DNA from: an uncultured Cytophagales bacterium
GTDB lineage: Bacteria > Bacteroidota > Bacteroidia > Cytophagales > Thermoflexibacteraceae
Assembly: GCA_938039675.1 (NCBI GenBank)
Contig: CALHUI010000003.1
Location: 434,001-498,000, forward strand
DNA length: 64,000 bases
Direction of reading: 5' to 3'
The translations under genes and the position numbers were made by a program. The notes beneath the pieces are model-generated. The model did no database searches and had not been told where the DNA came from. It saw only the letters and a program-made list of their open reading frames with translations. Below, in pieces: positions 133 to 8,323 of the stretch. Numbering within the stretch: position 1 is the stretch's first letter; every line of letters starts with the position of its first letter.

Positions 133-990
133 TCATTGGCGTGTTGAAAAATCGTTGACTGATTTGATAAACTCTGCCCCCATTAGAAAAATAATAGCAG
201 AGTAGTAAATCCATACCAACAATACTGCCAAAGAAGCCGTAGCTCCGTAAATCAGATTAATGCTGCTGTAAGCAATGTACATGCCGATTATCCAACGCCC
301 GATGCCAAAAAAAATTGTGGTAAATACAGCACCGTAGAAAGTATGCGACCAACGCATTTTTACATCGGACAACCATTGATAAATAAGCCAAAACAGCAGC
401 AGTAAAATGCTGAATATTAAACCTCGGTCGGTTAAAATGCCAATAAACCGTAATTGTTTGGGTAGTATTTTTTCTATGTGGCTGTAAACAATTGTAAGCG
501 TCTGTTCTGCAATTATCAGTACAATAATGAGCAGCCCTATCATAAACGTAATGAGCAGCCCCATAAATCGCTTGTGCAGCAGTTGCCAGAAAGTGAGTTG
601 TTCGCCTGTTTTGATGCCCCATATTCTGTTGAGCGAGTTATGGATGGCCGAGAATACCGATGTGGCACCAATGATGACCGTAGCTATACCGGCGGTAAGT
701 GCCCAAAAGTTATTTCCTTCCAAATACGCAAAGCGAATAATGGATTCAATCAGTCGTGCGGCATCTTCGCCAATCAGGTCGGCAGTTTTGCGGTAAATTT
801 CGCCCTGTGCGGCTTCTTGCCCAAAAAAGAATCCGCTAACCGATACGATAATGAACAGAATGGGGGCTAATGAAAAAGTAGTATAGTAAGCAAGCGCTGC
901 ACTATGCGTAAAACAGTCATCCTGAATAAAATTGCTTGCCAAAATGCGTACACTTCGCCCGATTTTTGTCAGTAAATATTTGCCATTCAT
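133..990 (-). CDS. YihY/virulence factor BrkB family membrane protein
   Basis: DDCFTHSAALAYYTTFSLAPILFIIVSVSGFFFG and GATSVFSAIHNSLNRIWGI motifs; several TM helices; start placed at internal M (MNGKYLL) rather than the 1113 ORF start. Confidence 0.88.
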   Translation of the reverse strand: MNGKYLLTKIGRSVRILASNFIQDDCFTHSAALAYYTTFSLAPILFIIVSVSGFFFGQEAAQGEIYRKTADLIGEDAARLIESIIRFAYLEGNNFWALTAGIATVIIGATSVFSAIHNSLNRIWGIKTGEQLTFWQLLHKRFMGLLITFMIGLLIIVLIIAEQTLTIVYSHIEKILPKQLRFIGILTDRGLIFSILLLLFWLIYQWLSDVKMRWSHTFYGAVFTTIFFGIGRWIIGMYIAYSSINLIYGATASLAVLLVWIYYSAIIFLMGAEFIKSVNDFSTRQ

Positions 991-1060
991 GCTGCTAAAA
1001 TGCTTAATTTTGGTCAGCAAGGCAAAATTTTGTAAAACCATTGCTTTAATTAATTGCAAT

Positions 1061-3397
1061 ATGATGGAATCCGGAATCTTACAAAACGGCAAAGCAGTAC
1101 TTCTCAGCACCAATCGTTATATAAAAGACAGCGATATTACGGTACACACAATGGCCGAGCCTGCGGCAGGCTTGATGCAGGAGGTGATTGGGCAGCACTT
1201 AATTAGCAGTTTACATGCCGAAAATATCGTTTGGCTGAACAATGAGCCGGATGTCATCAGAATTAAAGAGCAAATCGCTTGGGCTGCCGAACAGGCCAGA
1301 GACTTGCTGTTGATTTATATTGCAGGCACAGCCATTTTGCGCCGCAGTCAAATTTATATCACCTTGCCACATTCCACCCGGGCGCAAATCCACGTGAATG
1401 GTATTTCTATACAGGAGTTGGCCGATGTTGTCCGCGAGCCGGAGGGCGCACACAAGGTTTTTGTGCTGGATTGCCATTTCTCGGGCGATGTCCCCGATAT
1501 GGTGCAGGCAGTACGCGAGGAACTGCACCGACACGCGGCCAAACTGAAAAAATCGTTCCTCATCGCTCAACTGTGGCAAGAAGGACGCGAAACACTGGGG
1601 CAGCAAATCAGCCGCATTTTGCGGAAGGGCATAATGAAACCGCAAGAGTGGCTTACTTTAGAAGATATTTGTCAGGAACTCAGCGAAATTGCACAACGCA
1701 ACCGCCAGCCCGAGCCATTAATAGCCGCCAAAAAACAAACGCTTGGCACAGCCATAGCTTTCAACCAGCGTTACAAAGAGTTTCAGCGCCTGTTTGCCGA
1801 AGCTCGGCAGGCTTTTGATGCACATGATTTTGACCTTGCCCTCACCTATTTCTCACAGGCACAAGGGCTTTATGCCAACGACGACGACACGGCCACTCAC
1901 ATCCGATTTATCAACCGCTTTCAGGAGGCAGAACAGTTTTATGCCCAAAAGCAGTATATCGCCGCGCGTCGTGCCTACGAAGCTGCTTTTGAGTTGATTC
2001 CTGCGCCGTTTTTGTTAGAAAAAATAGAACGCTGCACGGCAGATTTAGCCAATCATTATTTTGAACTGCAACAATATGACCAAGCAAAAGCCGCCTATAC
2101 ACGCTTGGCAAGCGACCACCCCGGCAATGCTTTCTACGCCGAACGGCTGCAAATCAGCTCCTCCGAGCAGCGCTATCACGAGTTGATAGATAAGGCAGAC
2201 AGTCATTATTTCCGCTATGAATTTGTAGAAGCACTGGAAGCCTATCGCGAAGCCATGACCATTCATACCGACACCAAAACCGAACGCCGTGCACAAGAGT
2301 GCCAGCGCTACGTAGATGTGTTGGTATATCTGCAACAAAAAGCCGAAACCGATGTCCGCGCCCGTATAGCGGAAGAAATGCAGCAAAAGGCAGATGCAGC
2401 TGTTGCAGAACGCGTTGCCCAGTTACAAAAAGAACTTACAGCGCGGATAGAGCAGGAGATGACCGCGAAAATGCAACAGTACTACGATACGCTCGTTTGG
2501 GATGCCGCCCTACAAAGCAACCAACGCGCAGCAATTGAACTGTATCGCAGCCTGTTCCCCAACGGGACATATATTGACCAAGCCGACTATTGGTTGAGCC
2601 TGTACCAAGAACCTGTTTACACCCCTGCAAAGCCCGTTGAAACATCTCCTTCCGTGCAATGGCAAAAATCAGCGGCAATTGAAACAAGCCCTTCTATTCA
2701 ACAAGAAAAACCGCCGGCAGAACAGTCTTTGTTTAAGCCGATAATAGAGGTTGTGCAATCCCAAATGCCGCAACCCGCGCCGCAATCTGTAGCCGAACTC
2801 CCTAAAGATGAAGAAACGCTCTGGAATGAGGCACTCAGCAAAGATACGATAGAGGGCTACTTGGAATACATTTCCCGAACCTCCGACGCTGAACATATTG
2901 CTGATGCTTACTACCGCATCAGCCGCATCAGGAATGCCGCCGCTCCTGTTGAAGAGGAAATGACAGCGCCCCACACCCTGCCTGCCGAAGAAATACCCGC
3001 ATTTGTTTACAATAACGACGTTCACGAAGAAACATCTGCCGCCAGTACGAGTGCCTACAAAGCACCCGCAGTTGCAGTGCCTGTAACGGAAACCTACCCA
3101 AACACTGCCGAGATGCTTGAGGAAGACTTTTGGCAACAAGCCCTGTTGGTCAATACTTCTCAGGCATATCAGAACTATCTGAACCGCTCAACGTTGCTTA
3201 AATACGAAAGTCAGGCAAAAGAGCGCATCAGCGCATTGCAGGAAAAAGAAAAAGTGCAGGAAACTTTGGAATGGGAAAAAGCAAGCGCTGAGGATACTTT
3301 GGAAGCCTACAAAGCGTACATTAATAAATATCCGTTTGGCAGTTACTATGCCAAAGCCCGATTCCGCATCGCAAGATTAGAATCGGAAATCAATTAA
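1061..3397 (+). CDS. Caspase-like (apparently catalytically dead) domain fused to TPR/coiled-coil and C-terminal helical repeats
   Basis: LLLIYIAGTAILRRSQIYITLP ... KVFVLDCHFSGD resembles the caspase-like core (YYAGHG...LDCCFSG); TPR-like FNQRYKEFQRLFAEARQAFDAHDFDLALTYFSQAQ; C-terminal repeats such as LEWEKASAEDTLEAYKAYINKYPFGSYYAKARFRIARLE. The ORF opens at 932 but the ATG at 1061/1064 clears the divergent yihY gene. Confidence 0.6.
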   Translation: MMESGILQNGKAVLLSTNRYIKDSDITVHTMAEPAAGLMQEVIGQHLISSLHAENIVWLNNEPDVIRIKEQIAWAAEQARDLLLIYIAGTAILRRSQIYITLPHSTRAQIHVNGISIQELADVVREPEGAHKVFVLDCHFSGDVPDMVQAVREELHRHAAKLKKSFLIAQLWQEGRETLGQQISRILRKGIMKPQEWLTLEDICQELSEIAQRNRQPEPLIAAKKQTLGTAIAFNQRYKEFQRLFAEARQAFDAHDFDLALTYFSQAQGLYANDDDTATHIRFINRFQEAEQFYAQKQYIAARRAYEAAFELIPAPFLLEKIERCTADLANHYFELQQYDQAKAAYTRLASDHPGNAFYAERLQISSSEQRYHELIDKADSHYFRYEFVEALEAYREAMTIHTDTKTERRAQECQRYVDVLVYLQQKAETDVRARIAEEMQQKADAAVAERVAQLQKELTARIEQEMTAKMQQYYDTLVWDAALQSNQRAAIELYRSLFPNGTYIDQADYWLSLYQEPVYTPAKPVETSPSVQWQKSAAIETSPSIQQEKPPAEQSLFKPIIEVVQSQMPQPAPQSVAELPKDEETLWNEALSKDTIEGYLEYISRTSDAEHIADAYYRISRIRNAAAPVEEEMTAPHTLPAEEIPAFVYNNDVHEETSAASTSAYKAPAVAVPVTETYPNTAEMLEEDFWQQALLVNTSQAYQNYLNRSTLLKYESQAKERISALQEKEKVQETLEWEKASAEDTLEAYKAYINKYPFGSYYAKARFRIARLESEIN

Positions 3398-3484: not shown

Positions 3485-4537
3485 ATGGCAGAAGACAAAG
3501 AAAAACAGGAAAAGCTCAAAATGCTGGAGCTCACCATAGCCAAGTTAGACAAGGCGTATGGCAAAGGTACAGTCATGCGTTTGAATGGCGATAAGGTAGA
3601 AGACATTCCTGCCATTTCAACCGGTTCGCTGGGCTTAGATATTGCATTGGGCATTGGCGGCCTGCCTCGTGGCCGTGTGGTAGAAATTTACGGCCCCGAA
3701 TCATCAGGTAAAACAACACTGACCCTCCACTGCATTGCCGAAGCACAAAAAGCAGGCGGTTTGGCAGCGTTCATAGATGCAGAGCACGCATTTGACAAGG
3801 TATATGCCGAAAAACTTGGCGTTGATTTAGATAACCTGTTAGTTTCACAGCCCGACAACGGTGAGCAGGCTCTTGAAATTGCCGAACAACTCATCCGCTC
3901 CGGCGCAATAGACATCATCGTTATTGACTCCGTAGCTGCACTCGTCCCCAAAGCAGAATTAGAAGGCGACATGGGCGACAGCAAAATGGGCTTGCAGGCA
4001 CGCTTGATGAGCCAAGCACTCAGAAAACTAACCGGCACCATCAGCAAAACCAACTGCTGTTGTATCTTCATTAACCAGCTTCGCGATAAAATCGGGGTGA
4101 TGTTTGGCAGCCCCGAAACTACCACCGGCGGCAATGCGCTGAAATATTACGCATCCGTTCGTTTAGATATTCGCCGCATTGGTGCCATCAAAGAAGGTGC
4201 AGACAACGTGGTAGGCAACCGCACCCGTGTAAAAGTGGTGAAAAATAAGGTTTCTCCGCCTTTCCGTCAGGCCGAGTTTGACATTATGTACGGCGAGGGC
4301 ATCTCAAAAGTAGGAGAAATCATTGATTTAGCCTCTGAAATGGAAATTATCAAAAAGTCGGGCTCATGGTTCTCCTACAACGGTAACAAGCTCGGTCAAG
4401 GGCGCGATGCAGTGAAAAATCTCTTGGCCGACAATCCCGAATTATCCGATGAGATTGAAGCTAAAATAAGGGCTATGGCAAAAGGGATGCCCGTACCCGA
4501 TACGGTCAGTGCCAACGGAGAAGCAGATGATGAATAA
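3485..4537 (+). CDS. recA: Recombinase RecA
   Basis: [19 protein letters not shown] Walker [52 protein letters not shown]. Confidence 0.99.
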
Positions 4538-4640: not shown

Positions 4641-4825
4641 ATATGCAAATGTGTATTTTTCAATAATTTGTGAAAATGTTTTCGCAAATCTCTTGCGCTT
4701 TTGTGTAAGCAAGCAGATTTTGGCAAGTAGCGCAAATGAACGCCGATGGATGGGTTGAAAGAGAGAGTCCACATATCTTAACACTATTTAAGCCCGCTCG
4801 CAAACGCATGGCAGGGCTTTTTCCA

Positions 4826-4833
4826 TAGCTTTG
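4826..4833 (+). promoter_or_regulatory. Bacteroidota -7 element TAGCTTTG upstream of the ostA-like gene
   Basis: Matches TAnnTTTG; ATG follows 5 nt later at 4839. Confidence 0.5.
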
Positions 4834-4838
4834 CAGCT

Positions 4839-6827
4839 ATGATACCATTACAAAAATCAGCAATCGGAGTCTACACGGCAATTATTTGGGGTTTGCTGTT
4901 ATTCTTTTTGGCACATACAGGCGGCTTGTTCGCCCAAAATCCCACATCAGGCGGCAGCAGCGCAGATGCCAAACAACAACCTGCCAAAAAAGAGCCTCCA
5001 ATAGAACTGTTGCCCGGTGCAGGCGTGCTCATAGGAGATGTTGTAAAAGGCGAAAATGTGCGGAAAGTACTGATGGATTCGCTTACCAAAGCACAAATCG
5101 GATTCCGGCAAGGAGGTGCTATGATGTTTTGCGACAGCGCCATTCAATACATCGGTCGGAATGTGGTACATGCCTTTGGGCGCATCTATCTGATTGATGC
5201 GGACAGTACCACTGCTGTCGGCGATTCGCTTTTTTACGATGGCAATACCCGCATAGCACGCCTGCGCGGCAACGTTGTGCTGCGCGATAAGGACAAAACC
5301 GTTACAACGAATCGCTTGGACTACAACCTCGCCACCAAAATAGCCAATTACAGCGGTGGCGGCATGGTTCAGGACGACAGCTCGCGCCTGACCAGCCGCA
5401 TCGGTTACTACAACACCATTACCAAAGTTGCCAATTTTCGCGGGAACGTATACTACCAAAGTCCTGAAACCGAACTTTCAGGCGATACTCTCACCTACAA
5501 TGCTCGCTCGAAAATAGTCTATTTCAATTCACGGACGCGCATTAAAACCCGCAACGGCGATATTATCACCGATAAAGGCGAATACAATACCGTGCTTGGC
5601 AAATCCAACTTTAAAGGGCGCACCAAAATCGACACAGACGAATATACCATCAGCGGAGATGTGTTGGATTATGACCGCGTAATGGAACGGGGATTTGCCA
5701 AAGGTAATGTAGAGTTTTACAACAAAAGAGACAACTTTATTATCCTTGGTGACTTTACACGCTATGATGGCGTGCCGGAAACAAGTCAAGTATATGGCAA
5801 TGCCGTACTGATAAGCCCGCAAAAAAACAGCAAGGACACGCTCTTTCTGGCTGCCGATACGCTGATTTCTTACAAGGAAGCACCATTGGCTGACTCATTA
5901 CCTGCCATTAAAAAACTGACTGCTTACCGCAATGTGCGCATCTATCGTTCCGATTTTCAGTCAAAATGCGATTCGCTGGGTTATCATCTGAACGATTCTA
6001 CCATTTTTTTCTACTACGACCCCGTCATTTGGACGAAAGGTTCGCAGTTAGTAGCCAAAGATATCAGCGTCCGCATGAAGAACGGTCAGATAGACTCCAT
6101 GAGTTTGCAGGAAAAGGCTTTTGTGATTTCGCAGGACACGCTGCTCAATTTCAATCAGATTAAGGGCAAAAATATTGACGCAAAATTTTACAAAGGTGAA
6201 CTGCGCAAGGTTTTTGTGAGCGGCAACGGTGAAAGTATTTTTCACGTGCTGGAACAGGATACCTTGTTTATGGGGCTAAACTACGTCAAATGCAGCGACA
6301 TGATTATCACTTTCAACGATTCGGCTCAGTTACAGGATATTTTGTTTATTAAACAGCCCGAAGGAAAGTTTATCCCGCCGCATGAGATTAAGCAGGAAAA
6401 CAAATATTTGGACGATTTTAACTGGCGAAGCAGCGAAAAACCGGCAAAGGGCGTTGTATTAGGCATCCATGCAGCCAATCAGTACCGCAGCGGTGATTTG
6501 AAAGGCGCACTGATGATTGTGGATGACTTTTTTAAGGTCTTCTTAAAGGGTGACAGGTTAATTTTTTATCGCACTGATGCAGATGAGGCAGACATTAAGC
6601 CCGAATTTTTTGTCCATGTGTATCCCAAAAACAAAAACGACTTGCCCATAGACAAGCGAAAGACAGGCTATGAAAATTTGGATTTCCGGTTTCCTGCCAA
6701 GCAGTTGCAAAACCGAACAGCCAAACACGACTTGGTATTACCCGAATTTAAGGCGGCGCGAGTAGTCATTGGGCAATACGGGGCTAAGAAAAAGATACTT
6801 TGGCAAAAAAGCTACAATTTCAGATAA
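4839..6827 (+). CDS. OstA-like protein (LptA/OstA N-terminal domain repeats, LPS transport related)
   Basis: Signal peptide then repeated beta-strand pattern: GNVVLRDKDKTVTTNRLDYNLATKIANYSGGGMVQDDSSRLTSRIGYYNTITKVANFRGNVYY. Confidence 0.85.
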   Translation: MIPLQKSAIGVYTAIIWGLLLFFLAHTGGLFAQNPTSGGSSADAKQQPAKKEPPIELLPGAGVLIGDVVKGENVRKVLMDSLTKAQIGFRQGGAMMFCDSAIQYIGRNVVHAFGRIYLIDADSTTAVGDSLFYDGNTRIARLRGNVVLRDKDKTVTTNRLDYNLATKIANYSGGGMVQDDSSRLTSRIGYYNTITKVANFRGNVYYQSPETELSGDTLTYNARSKIVYFNSRTRIKTRNGDIITDKGEYNTVLGKSNFKGRTKIDTDEYTISGDVLDYDRVMERGFAKGNVEFYNKRDNFIILGDFTRYDGVPETSQVYGNAVLISPQKNSKDTLFLAADTLISYKEAPLADSLPAIKKLTAYRNVRIYRSDFQSKCDSLGYHLNDSTIFFYYDPVIWTKGSQLVAKDISVRMKNGQIDSMSLQEKAFVISQDTLLNFNQIKGKNIDAKFYKGELRKVFVSGNGESIFHVLEQDTLFMGLNYVKCSDMIITFNDSAQLQDILFIKQPEGKFIPPHEIKQENKYLDDFNWRSSEKPAKGVVLGIHAANQYRSGDLKGALMIVDDFFKVFLKGDRLIFYRTDADEADIKPEFFVHVYPKNKNDLPIDKRKTGYENLDFRFPAKQLQNRTAKHDLVLPEFKAARVVIGQYGAKKKILWQKSYNFR

Positions 6828-7005
6828 GCAAGCAGGTATTGGGGTATCAGATTGAAAATCAGGTTTAAACACGTTTTTTTCAATGGTTTAGCCAAAAACT
6901 TTTCGCAAACTGCCTGTATTTTGTATAAAGCCACAGGTTATTGGCAACTATCGGCTTGCATTATGGAATGTGCTTTAGTCGGCTTGGTTGGTTCTTAAAA
7001 AACGC

Positions 7006-7024
7006 GGCCACCCAACGGGTGGCC
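7006..7024 (-). terminator. Intrinsic terminator of nrdB
   Basis: ggccaccc-aac-gggtggcc hairpin; on the minus strand followed by GCGTTTTTTAAG. Confidence 0.75.
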
Positions 7025-7049
7025 TGTCAGGTTATTTAAAGTTACGCTA

Positions 7050-8039
7050 TTAAAAATCTTCGTCCAAGCTGAATTTCTGTGCTGATTTTTCGCTCATCAC
7101 GCCGGCTTTTTGATATTCGCCTACGCGTTTTTCGAAGAAGTTGGTTTTCCCTTGCAGCGAAATCATTTCCATAAAATCGAATGGATTAGATGAGCCGTAG
7201 TATTTTTTGTAGCCCAATTCCACCAGCAGGCGGTCGGCTACAAACTCAATGTATTGGCTCATCAGCCGCGAATTCATGCCTATTAAGTCCACGGGCAGGG
7301 CATCTGTGATAAACTCTTGTTCAATTTTTACAGCATCGGTAATAATCTCGAGCACTCGTTCCTCCGGCAGGCGATTTTTCAAATGGCGGGTGTAGAGCAG
7401 ACAGGCAAAGTCGCAGTGCAGACCTTCGTCTCTGGAAATCAGTTCATTAGAAAAACTCAGTCCCGGCATGAGACCGCGCTTTTTCAGCCAGAAAATAGAG
7501 CAGAAACTGCCTGAGAAGAAAATACCCTCGACGGCTGCAAAGGCCACTAAACGCTCGGCAAAGTTGGGGCTTTTAATCCAGCGCAGTGCCCATTCGGCTT
7601 TTTTCTGCACGCAGGGGATGGTTTCAATGGCATTGAACAGGCGGTGCTTTTCCGCAGGGTCTTTAATGTAGGTGTCAATCAGCAGCGAGTAAGTTTCCGA
7701 GTGGATGTTTTCCATCATAATCTGGAAGCCGTAGAAACATTTGGCCTCAGAATACTGTACTTCGTGCAAAAAATTGGCAGCCAAATTTTCATTCACAATG
7801 CCGTCGCTGGCAGCAAAAAACGCCAATACGTGCGAGATGAAATGACGCTCGCCATCGTTGAGGTTTTCCCAATCTTTCAAGTCTTGCGAGAGGTCTATTT
7901 CTTCGGCAGTCCAAAAACTTGCCTCATGTTTTTTGTACATCTGCCAGATATCGTCGTACTCGATAGGCAGCAATACAAAACGATTGGGGTTTTCAACCAG
8001 CAATGGTTCTGTAAAAGTTGCGGAATCAGTGTTTGTCAT
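7050..8039 (-). CDS. nrdB: Ribonucleotide-diphosphate reductase subunit beta (class Ia, eukaryote-like R2)
   Basis: [53 protein letters not shown]-terminal KFSLDEDF tail. Confidence 0.96.
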
Positions 8040-8323
8040 TGTATGTGCAATCAGTAAGATAAATCAAACATCAGTACCGTATTCTTAAACAAATTGTCTA
8101 AGTGGATTTGTTTTAGAATTTTTACAAGATTTTCGCTAAAGGCGCAGGGTAGGGATAGCTTGTTATTACTTGCAAAGGTGCAATAAATAGGCCTGAATTG
8201 CGAATTTTTTTGCGGTTTTAAACATTTAAACTCTTGTTTGAAGTTTGTACAACTTAAACATTATCGGATTGCGGTTGGGAGTAAAATAGTATTATTTTTA
8301 GTAGGGTTGCAGTTTTACAAGCT

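Follow-up and report, generated by a model that had tools for sequence, protein, structure and literature searches.

What remains of a caspase domain once the residues that make it a protease have gone? The question is raised by a gene near the start of the window, by which we mean the whole stretch of 64,000 nucleotides that was analysed. The first-pass annotation had read its product as a caspase-like protein in which both catalytic residues are replaced and to which helical repeats are fused.

The gene and its caspase-like domain

The frame that opens at 1061 is translated as a protein of 778 residues beginning MMESGILQ, with its stop codon at 3395-3397, and its start ATG is matched by those of two congeners when the loci (L067 and L068) are compared. 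The N-terminus, MMESGILQNGKAV, has no signal-peptide look when judged by eye, and the protein is cytoplasmic-looking in sequence. The repeats that had been reported behind the domain are present according to Pfam, the structural model and repeats in the sequence itself (Table 1). The hairpin units follow the pattern W-x-x-A ... Y-x-x-Y ... P-x-G-x-Y ... A-x-x-R-I, and the end of the stretch that holds the last two is the best-modelled part of the full-length model (pLDDT 80-87).

Table 1. Features of the gene, its product and the adjoining genes, in window coordinates.
Feature	Position	Strand	Basis
YihY/BrkB-family membrane protein (PF03631), divergent upstream neighbour	133..1041	-	Pfam; also in three congeners and G096
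Whole gene: dead caspase-like domain, TPR, coiled coil, helical-hairpin repeats (778 aa)	1061..3397	+	ORF
Caspase-like (EACC1-associated type) domain, residues ~8-215	1082..1705	+	NF047832 match, hhalign, fold search
K22 (22/22 dead, 0/10 intact)	1124..1126	+	Alignment
K69-E70 (E70 22/22 dead, 0/10 intact)	1265..1270	+	Alignment
Catalytic His position, Thr90; AGTA (residues 88-91, 1322-1333) for GHG	1328..1330	+	Alignment
R94, four residues past the lost His (22/22 dead, 0/10 intact)	1340..1342	+	Alignment
Q109-x-H111-x-N113, specific to the dead clade (Q109 20/22, H111 21/22; N113 22/22 dead, 0/10 intact)	1385..1399	+	Alignment
E126 (22/22 dead, 0/10 intact)	1436..1438	+	Alignment
D137, first Asp of D-x-C (22/22 dead, 10/10 intact)	1469..1471	+	Alignment
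Catalytic Cys position, His139; DCH (residues 137-139, 1469-1477) for D-x-C	1475..1477	+	Alignment
Tetratricopeptide repeats, residues 236-425	1766..2335	+	Pfam TPR_2, 1.5e-6
Long helix, probable coiled coil, residues ~426-480	2336..2500	+	Helix 405-498 in low-confidence model
Helical-hairpin repeat 1 (VWDAAL...FPNGTY...), residues 476-515	2486..2605	+	Sequence repeats
Helical-hairpin repeat 2, residues 584-626	2810..2938	+	Sequence repeats
Helical-hairpin repeats 3 and 4, residues 686-778	3116..3394	+	Sequence repeats
recA, downstream neighbour	3485..4537	+	Same order in G003, G082, G023

Residues 11-211 of the protein match the NCBIfam model NF047832 ("caspase, EACC1-associated type") at 3.6e-20 and 72.3 bits, which is below the curated naming cut-off of 140 bits, in an alignment that spans nearly all of the 211 model positions; this is the best and only NCBIfam match. 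When a profile of 12 members of the family to which the protein belongs (hereafter the dead family) is aligned by hhalign with eight intact caspases, the probability is 99.9% (E 1.5e-33, 235 columns). A Pfam search of the window protein itself gives no caspase match, and most of the dead family is missed by the Pfam caspase model. Two orthologues from another genus of the same taxonomic family, L010 and L009, nevertheless score above the Peptidase_C14 cut-off of 21.4 bits, at 43.0 and 40.2 bits. A p10-like Pfam match is likewise absent for the window protein, although, given the weakness of the domain model, a p10 remnant may lie within residues 170-215. Identity between dead proteins falls as low as 20-25%, and PDB sequence searches return only chance matches for the dead-family profile and only marginal metacaspase matches (0.01) for the profile of the intact relatives.

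Because the full-length AlphaFold model, built from two sequences, is poor (pLDDT 46.7), a domain-only model was used, and for fold recognition only. This model, also from two sequences, is of low confidence (pLDDT 50.5, pTM 0.52) and has the alternating strand and helix order of a caspase. In a fold search its top PDB matches are metacaspase 4, metacaspase 9, MALT1 and caspase-9; 13 chains lie at E <= 0.001, and all 50 matches listed are caspase-fold entries, among them the Raptor-containing mTORC1. Judged by these comparisons, the domain is clearly akin to the EACC1-associated caspases and clearly descended from an EACC1-type bacterial caspase. The caspase assignment of the first-pass annotation is thus borne out by the NCBIfam match, the profile alignment, the orthologues and the predicted fold, and its remark on EACC1 was right in that, among intact proteins, those most closely related to the window protein are caspases of the EACC1 type.

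The succession of caspase-like domain, TPR region and hairpin repeats is the same in all 17 dead proteins examined, each of which has a TPR-homologous region. The C-terminal parts of the intact relatives differ, with GNAT and LRR in one (L081) and an inactive STAND in another (L083); in the intact protein of G004 (L088) hairpin repeats alone stand behind the caspase domain. The G004 protein, intact and followed by ~12 hairpin units, may be the nearest to a possible ancestral form. At this locus (L088 5854-8574) the hairpin units of the EACC1-type caspase match BamD/YfiO models (TIGR03302, 81.4 bits) despite the caspase fusion, and such matches in caspase-fused hairpins could mislead annotation.

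Loss of the catalytic pair and exchange of conserved residues

The coordinates first given for the frame and for the AGTA and DCH motifs are exact, and the alignment confirms that the catalytic His and Cys are both lost in the window protein. Among the 22 genomes with a dead gene, the catalytic Cys column holds Glu in six, His in four, Asp in four, Ala in three and Tyr, Thr, Pro, Ser and Val in one each, with Cys in none; the catalytic His column holds Tyr in 13, Thr in four, His in three, and Val and Asp in one each. All ten intact relatives compared keep both residues. The particular pair AGTA/DCH is conserved only within the genus of the window, where three of four genomes carry both motifs and the fourth has SGTA and DCY. 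Elsewhere in the dead clade the motifs are SGY/DAE, SGY/DAD, AGY/DCA or AGH/DCA, with Tyr/Glu, Tyr/Asp, Tyr/Ala or His/Ala at the two catalytic positions. No conserved His/Cys pair stands elsewhere in the domain in the 22 genomes, which was the alternative that the homologue alignment was meant to check. To judge by this alignment, catalytic loss is a trait of the family and not of a single odd gene. Since the His survives in three dead proteins and the Cys in none, the Cys was probably the first to go. The loss of the nucleophile is by itself our ground for predicting that these proteins are proteolytically inactive; the pseudo-caspase reading is supported, and neither the predicted fold nor the alignment contradicts it.

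The domain has also gained constraint. Eight residues are invariant in 22 of 22 dead genomes (K22, E70, R94, N113, E126, D137, G190 and N235), while G91, S141, N35, N55, F179 and T180, which are invariant in the intact relatives and several of which lie around the active site, have been released. This exchange, in which new invariants are fixed and old ones let go, looks like a change of function. The placement of the invariant residues in space is unreliable in the weak two-sequence model (pLDDT 50).

The frame of the dead gene is open in all 22 genomes. Comparison of the domain with that of G003 by the NG86 method gives dN 0.031, dS 0.127 and an omega of 0.25 (bootstrap 95% 0.13-0.47), which rests on only 28 differing codons since G003 is close to the genome of the window; the dS of recA for the same pair, 0.148, is close to that of the domain. 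YN00, a routine of the same experimental module, gives omega values of 0.72 against G003, 0.14 against G082 and 0.22 against G023, and because of the first of these values the G003 pair alone is indecisive on selection. Relative to G082, identity is 70% in the domain, 82% in the TPRs and 81% in the hairpins, compared with 31% in the linkers. Taken at the level of codons and residues, the dead clade is under purifying selection.

Distribution, neighbours and the link to EACC1 cassettes

Distribution searches, amounting to 1311 overlapping genome look-ups, place the dead family in nine of 14 genomes of the window's own family and in one other Cytophagales family (f18), the carriers being Cytophagales bacteria related to Bernardetia. 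The searched genomes outside these two families give only intact caspases, and the class and phylum samples beyond the order contain a single relative, in G392, with its catalytic residues intact. No relative of the dead protein was found in the viral contigs searched, and PADLOC has no model that matches it. Because it is absent from five of the 14 genomes of its own family, the gene is dispensable over longer time.

Trees of the domain were built without the two trait columns (catalytic His and Cys). A single branch, supported at 98/98, separates the 17 dead proteins from the intact ones, and its support becomes 99/98 when three more C14 proteins are added; two C14 proteins from the window's genus then fall far outside (100/98), and the dead clade groups with the intact relatives of EACC1 type. 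Several branches are long, and the branching order inside the dead clade is unsure. Since the dead proteins form one branch, a single ancestral inactivation, long ago, is likely on this phylogeny.

The order of the divergent YihY/BrkB gene, the dead caspase gene and recA is kept in four genomes of the genus, and a different stable neighbourhood of housekeeping type surrounds the dead gene in genus g37 of f18. No adjacent partner gene is conserved across all genera with the dead gene. In two f18 genera a gene for a small acidic protein (~81-94 aa, motif SPYPDDFLA) lies just upstream of it (L078 8638-8922 and L080 9144-9560, and likewise in G034, G064, G078, G091, G119, G132, G164 and G213). This protein, which has no Pfam match and is absent from the window's family, is a candidate partner of the dead caspase. 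A cytochrome P450-like gene that immediately precedes the window (L094 12177-13381, G000:C3) appears as three short frames; at the same place in the congeners G003 and G082 it is one open frame of 452 aa.

The EACC1-associated caspases (NF047832; PMC7159879) share the domain over its full length and, like the proteins described here, have repeat regions fused C-terminally. The dead family differs from them in lacking the catalytic pair, in its score, in having no EACC1 gene and in its one fixed C-terminal architecture, whereas theirs is variable and diversifying. EACC1 stands directly ahead of the intact relatives in G067 and G021 (PF19953, 54.2 and 53.6 bits; cut-off 23.6), and an EACC1-like gene with weak PF19953 scores stands ahead of those in G004 and G003; the intact G392 relative is an EAD11 fusion with an adjoining MoxR-type ATPase. 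A PF19953 search of 13 genomes with the dead gene, the window's own included, found none, and the gene directly upstream of the dead gene in the window is the divergent YihY/BrkB gene. With EACC1 absent beside the dead gene and present beside intact kin, the dead clade no longer belongs to the two-gene conflict format. The dead gene is a stable, single-copy chromosomal gene outside any defence island or two-gene conflict cassette.

The EACC1 system was originally described from actinobacteria and, sporadically, proteobacteria (System 4, PMC7159879). True EACC1-caspase cassettes also occur in Cytophagales, at L092 (6729-7124 with 4806-6623) and L093 (7220-7591 with 5302-7122); PF19953 scores 54 bits in these cassettes, and the L093 protein scores 157 bits against NF047832. 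MoxR-like AAA ATPases lie beside other intact relatives (L089 2623-5954, L090 4853-8010 and L083 4445-7732), which suggests that ternary conflict systems occur in the same order or class.

Proposed role and alternative readings

The loss of the catalytic residues, the conservation of new charged residues and the attached repeat scaffold together make binding more probable than cutting. We therefore favor, as the probable reading of these sequences, that a dead descendant of an EACC1-type caspase has been reused as a non-proteolytic binding adaptor on a repeat scaffold. On this view the former protease domain would have given up cutting but would still bind something, whether a small ligand, a peptide motif or a partner protein, through its remodelled active-site face together with the newly invariant residues. 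Client proteins might then be held around the domain by the TPRs, coiled coil and hairpin repeats, which would make the whole protein an intracellular adaptor with a logic comparable to that of Raptor, the closest case in which such a logic has been worked out. The caspase-like domain of Raptor shows no caspase activity and is a proposed recruiter of substrates with TOS motifs (PMC5205667). Like the dead protein, Raptor (PF14538) has a caspase fold followed by a repeat scaffold, but the likeness is one of analogy only: a Pfam echo of Raptor in L010 (19.0 bits) is below the cut-off of 27, and none of the other tests here points to kinship. Raptor, moreover, is eukaryotic, carries HEAT and WD40 repeats where the dead family has TPR and hairpin repeats, and keeps His153 and Cys196 (PMC5205667), whereas the dead family has lost its pair.

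A fuller scenario, which we put forward tentatively, is that a conflict-system caspase was retired once, in the ancestor of the two Cytophagales families, and became a housekeeping adaptor or sensor. K22, K69-E70, R94, E126 and Q109-x-H-x-N113 might make up its new binding (or catalytic) site on the face of the old active site, and the protein would then have followed, in bacteria, a path like that of Raptor.

The first-pass annotation had proposed that the dead protein may act with an intact caspase encoded elsewhere, and a dominant-negative regulator or decoy of this kind would pair or compete with such an enzyme. Precedent exists in the MoxR-vWA systems, where inactive effector caspases are common: ~70% of the vWA-effector caspases are reported to be inactive, with peptide-binding or dominant-negative roles proposed for them (Kaur et al. 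2020, PMC7159879); the window gene, with YihY/BrkB and recA as neighbors, lies outside such a cassette. The search of the genome for an intact paralogue found one intact C14 protein (L002/L086), at G000:C24 (L086 6766-8850), with the motifs AAHG...DACFSG, and every genome with the dead gene has at least one C14 protein. Peptidase_C14 proteins are present, however, in 26 of 26 genomes searched, equally in five genomes of the window's family that lack the dead gene, and co-occurrence is therefore uninformative. The C14 proteins of the window's genome and of G082 also lie in a distant branch of the tree and, since they have signal-peptide-like starts that the dead protein does not have, are probably exported. 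Nor does any caspase gene adjoin the dead gene. The proposed partnership thus finds no support here, and a decoy role seems unlikely.

Another reading, that K22, E70, R94, H111, N113 and E126 form the center of a new catalytic or small-ligand-binding activity (for nucleotides, for example), we consider quite unlikely. It draws on the fixation of six to eight polar residues across proteins that share so little identity, and on an exchange of constraint that goes beyond mere loss. Against this, the domain contains no recognized cofactor motif, the weak model cannot show the invariant residues clustering in space, and the role of these residues may lie in folding or at an interface.

It is very improbable that the domain is a relic, a decaying protease that persists through its attachment to a useful TPR/repeat protein. 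Such genes do decay, as a second caspase gene in the same genome illustrates (L087 ~7750-8166, G000:C1:37761-38264): it looks broken, with GHG and DAC intact and an in-frame TGA shortly past the Cys. The dead gene, in contrast, has its open frames, purifying selection, a domain far better conserved than the linkers and invariant residues of which some are new, and these largely refute the relic reading. That the domain is an active protease using another nucleophile is hardly credible, since position 139, although Ser, Thr or Tyr in a few dead members, is mostly Ala, Val, Pro, Glu, Asp or His, 10 of the 22 have Ala at the neighboring position, Cys138, and no Ser, Thr or Cys is conserved in the domain.

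The dead Cytophagales caspases are a traceable new form among the already known bacterial pseudo-orthocaspases, which likewise have a caspase-like p20 domain with His and Cys replaced, often with Tyr for His. Most descriptions of dead bacterial caspases so far come from Alphaproteobacteria and Cyanobacteria: among caspase homologues of bacteria 8.6% are pseudo-orthocaspases, and these two groups hold 90% of them (Klemencic et al. 2019, PMC6426788), with 10 of 1078 sequences in Bacteroidetes (PMC6426788). In the present case a whole lineage is traceable, leading from an EACC1 caspase cassette of immune type to a putative adaptor that has no partner, is kept by vertical descent and carries newly fixed residues, which makes it possible to test what a caspase domain does after cutting stops and which residues carry the new function. 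Deletion of the pseudo-orthocaspase SyOC of Synechocystis increases tolerance of oxidative stress (PMC7889975). The Phe-Ser pseudo-orthocaspases of Alphaproteobacteria carry TPRs, as the dead family does (PMC6426788), and the dyads differ, being mostly YS, YA, FS, QC and HA in pseudo-orthocaspases and mainly Y/E, Y/D, T/H and Y/A in the dead family.
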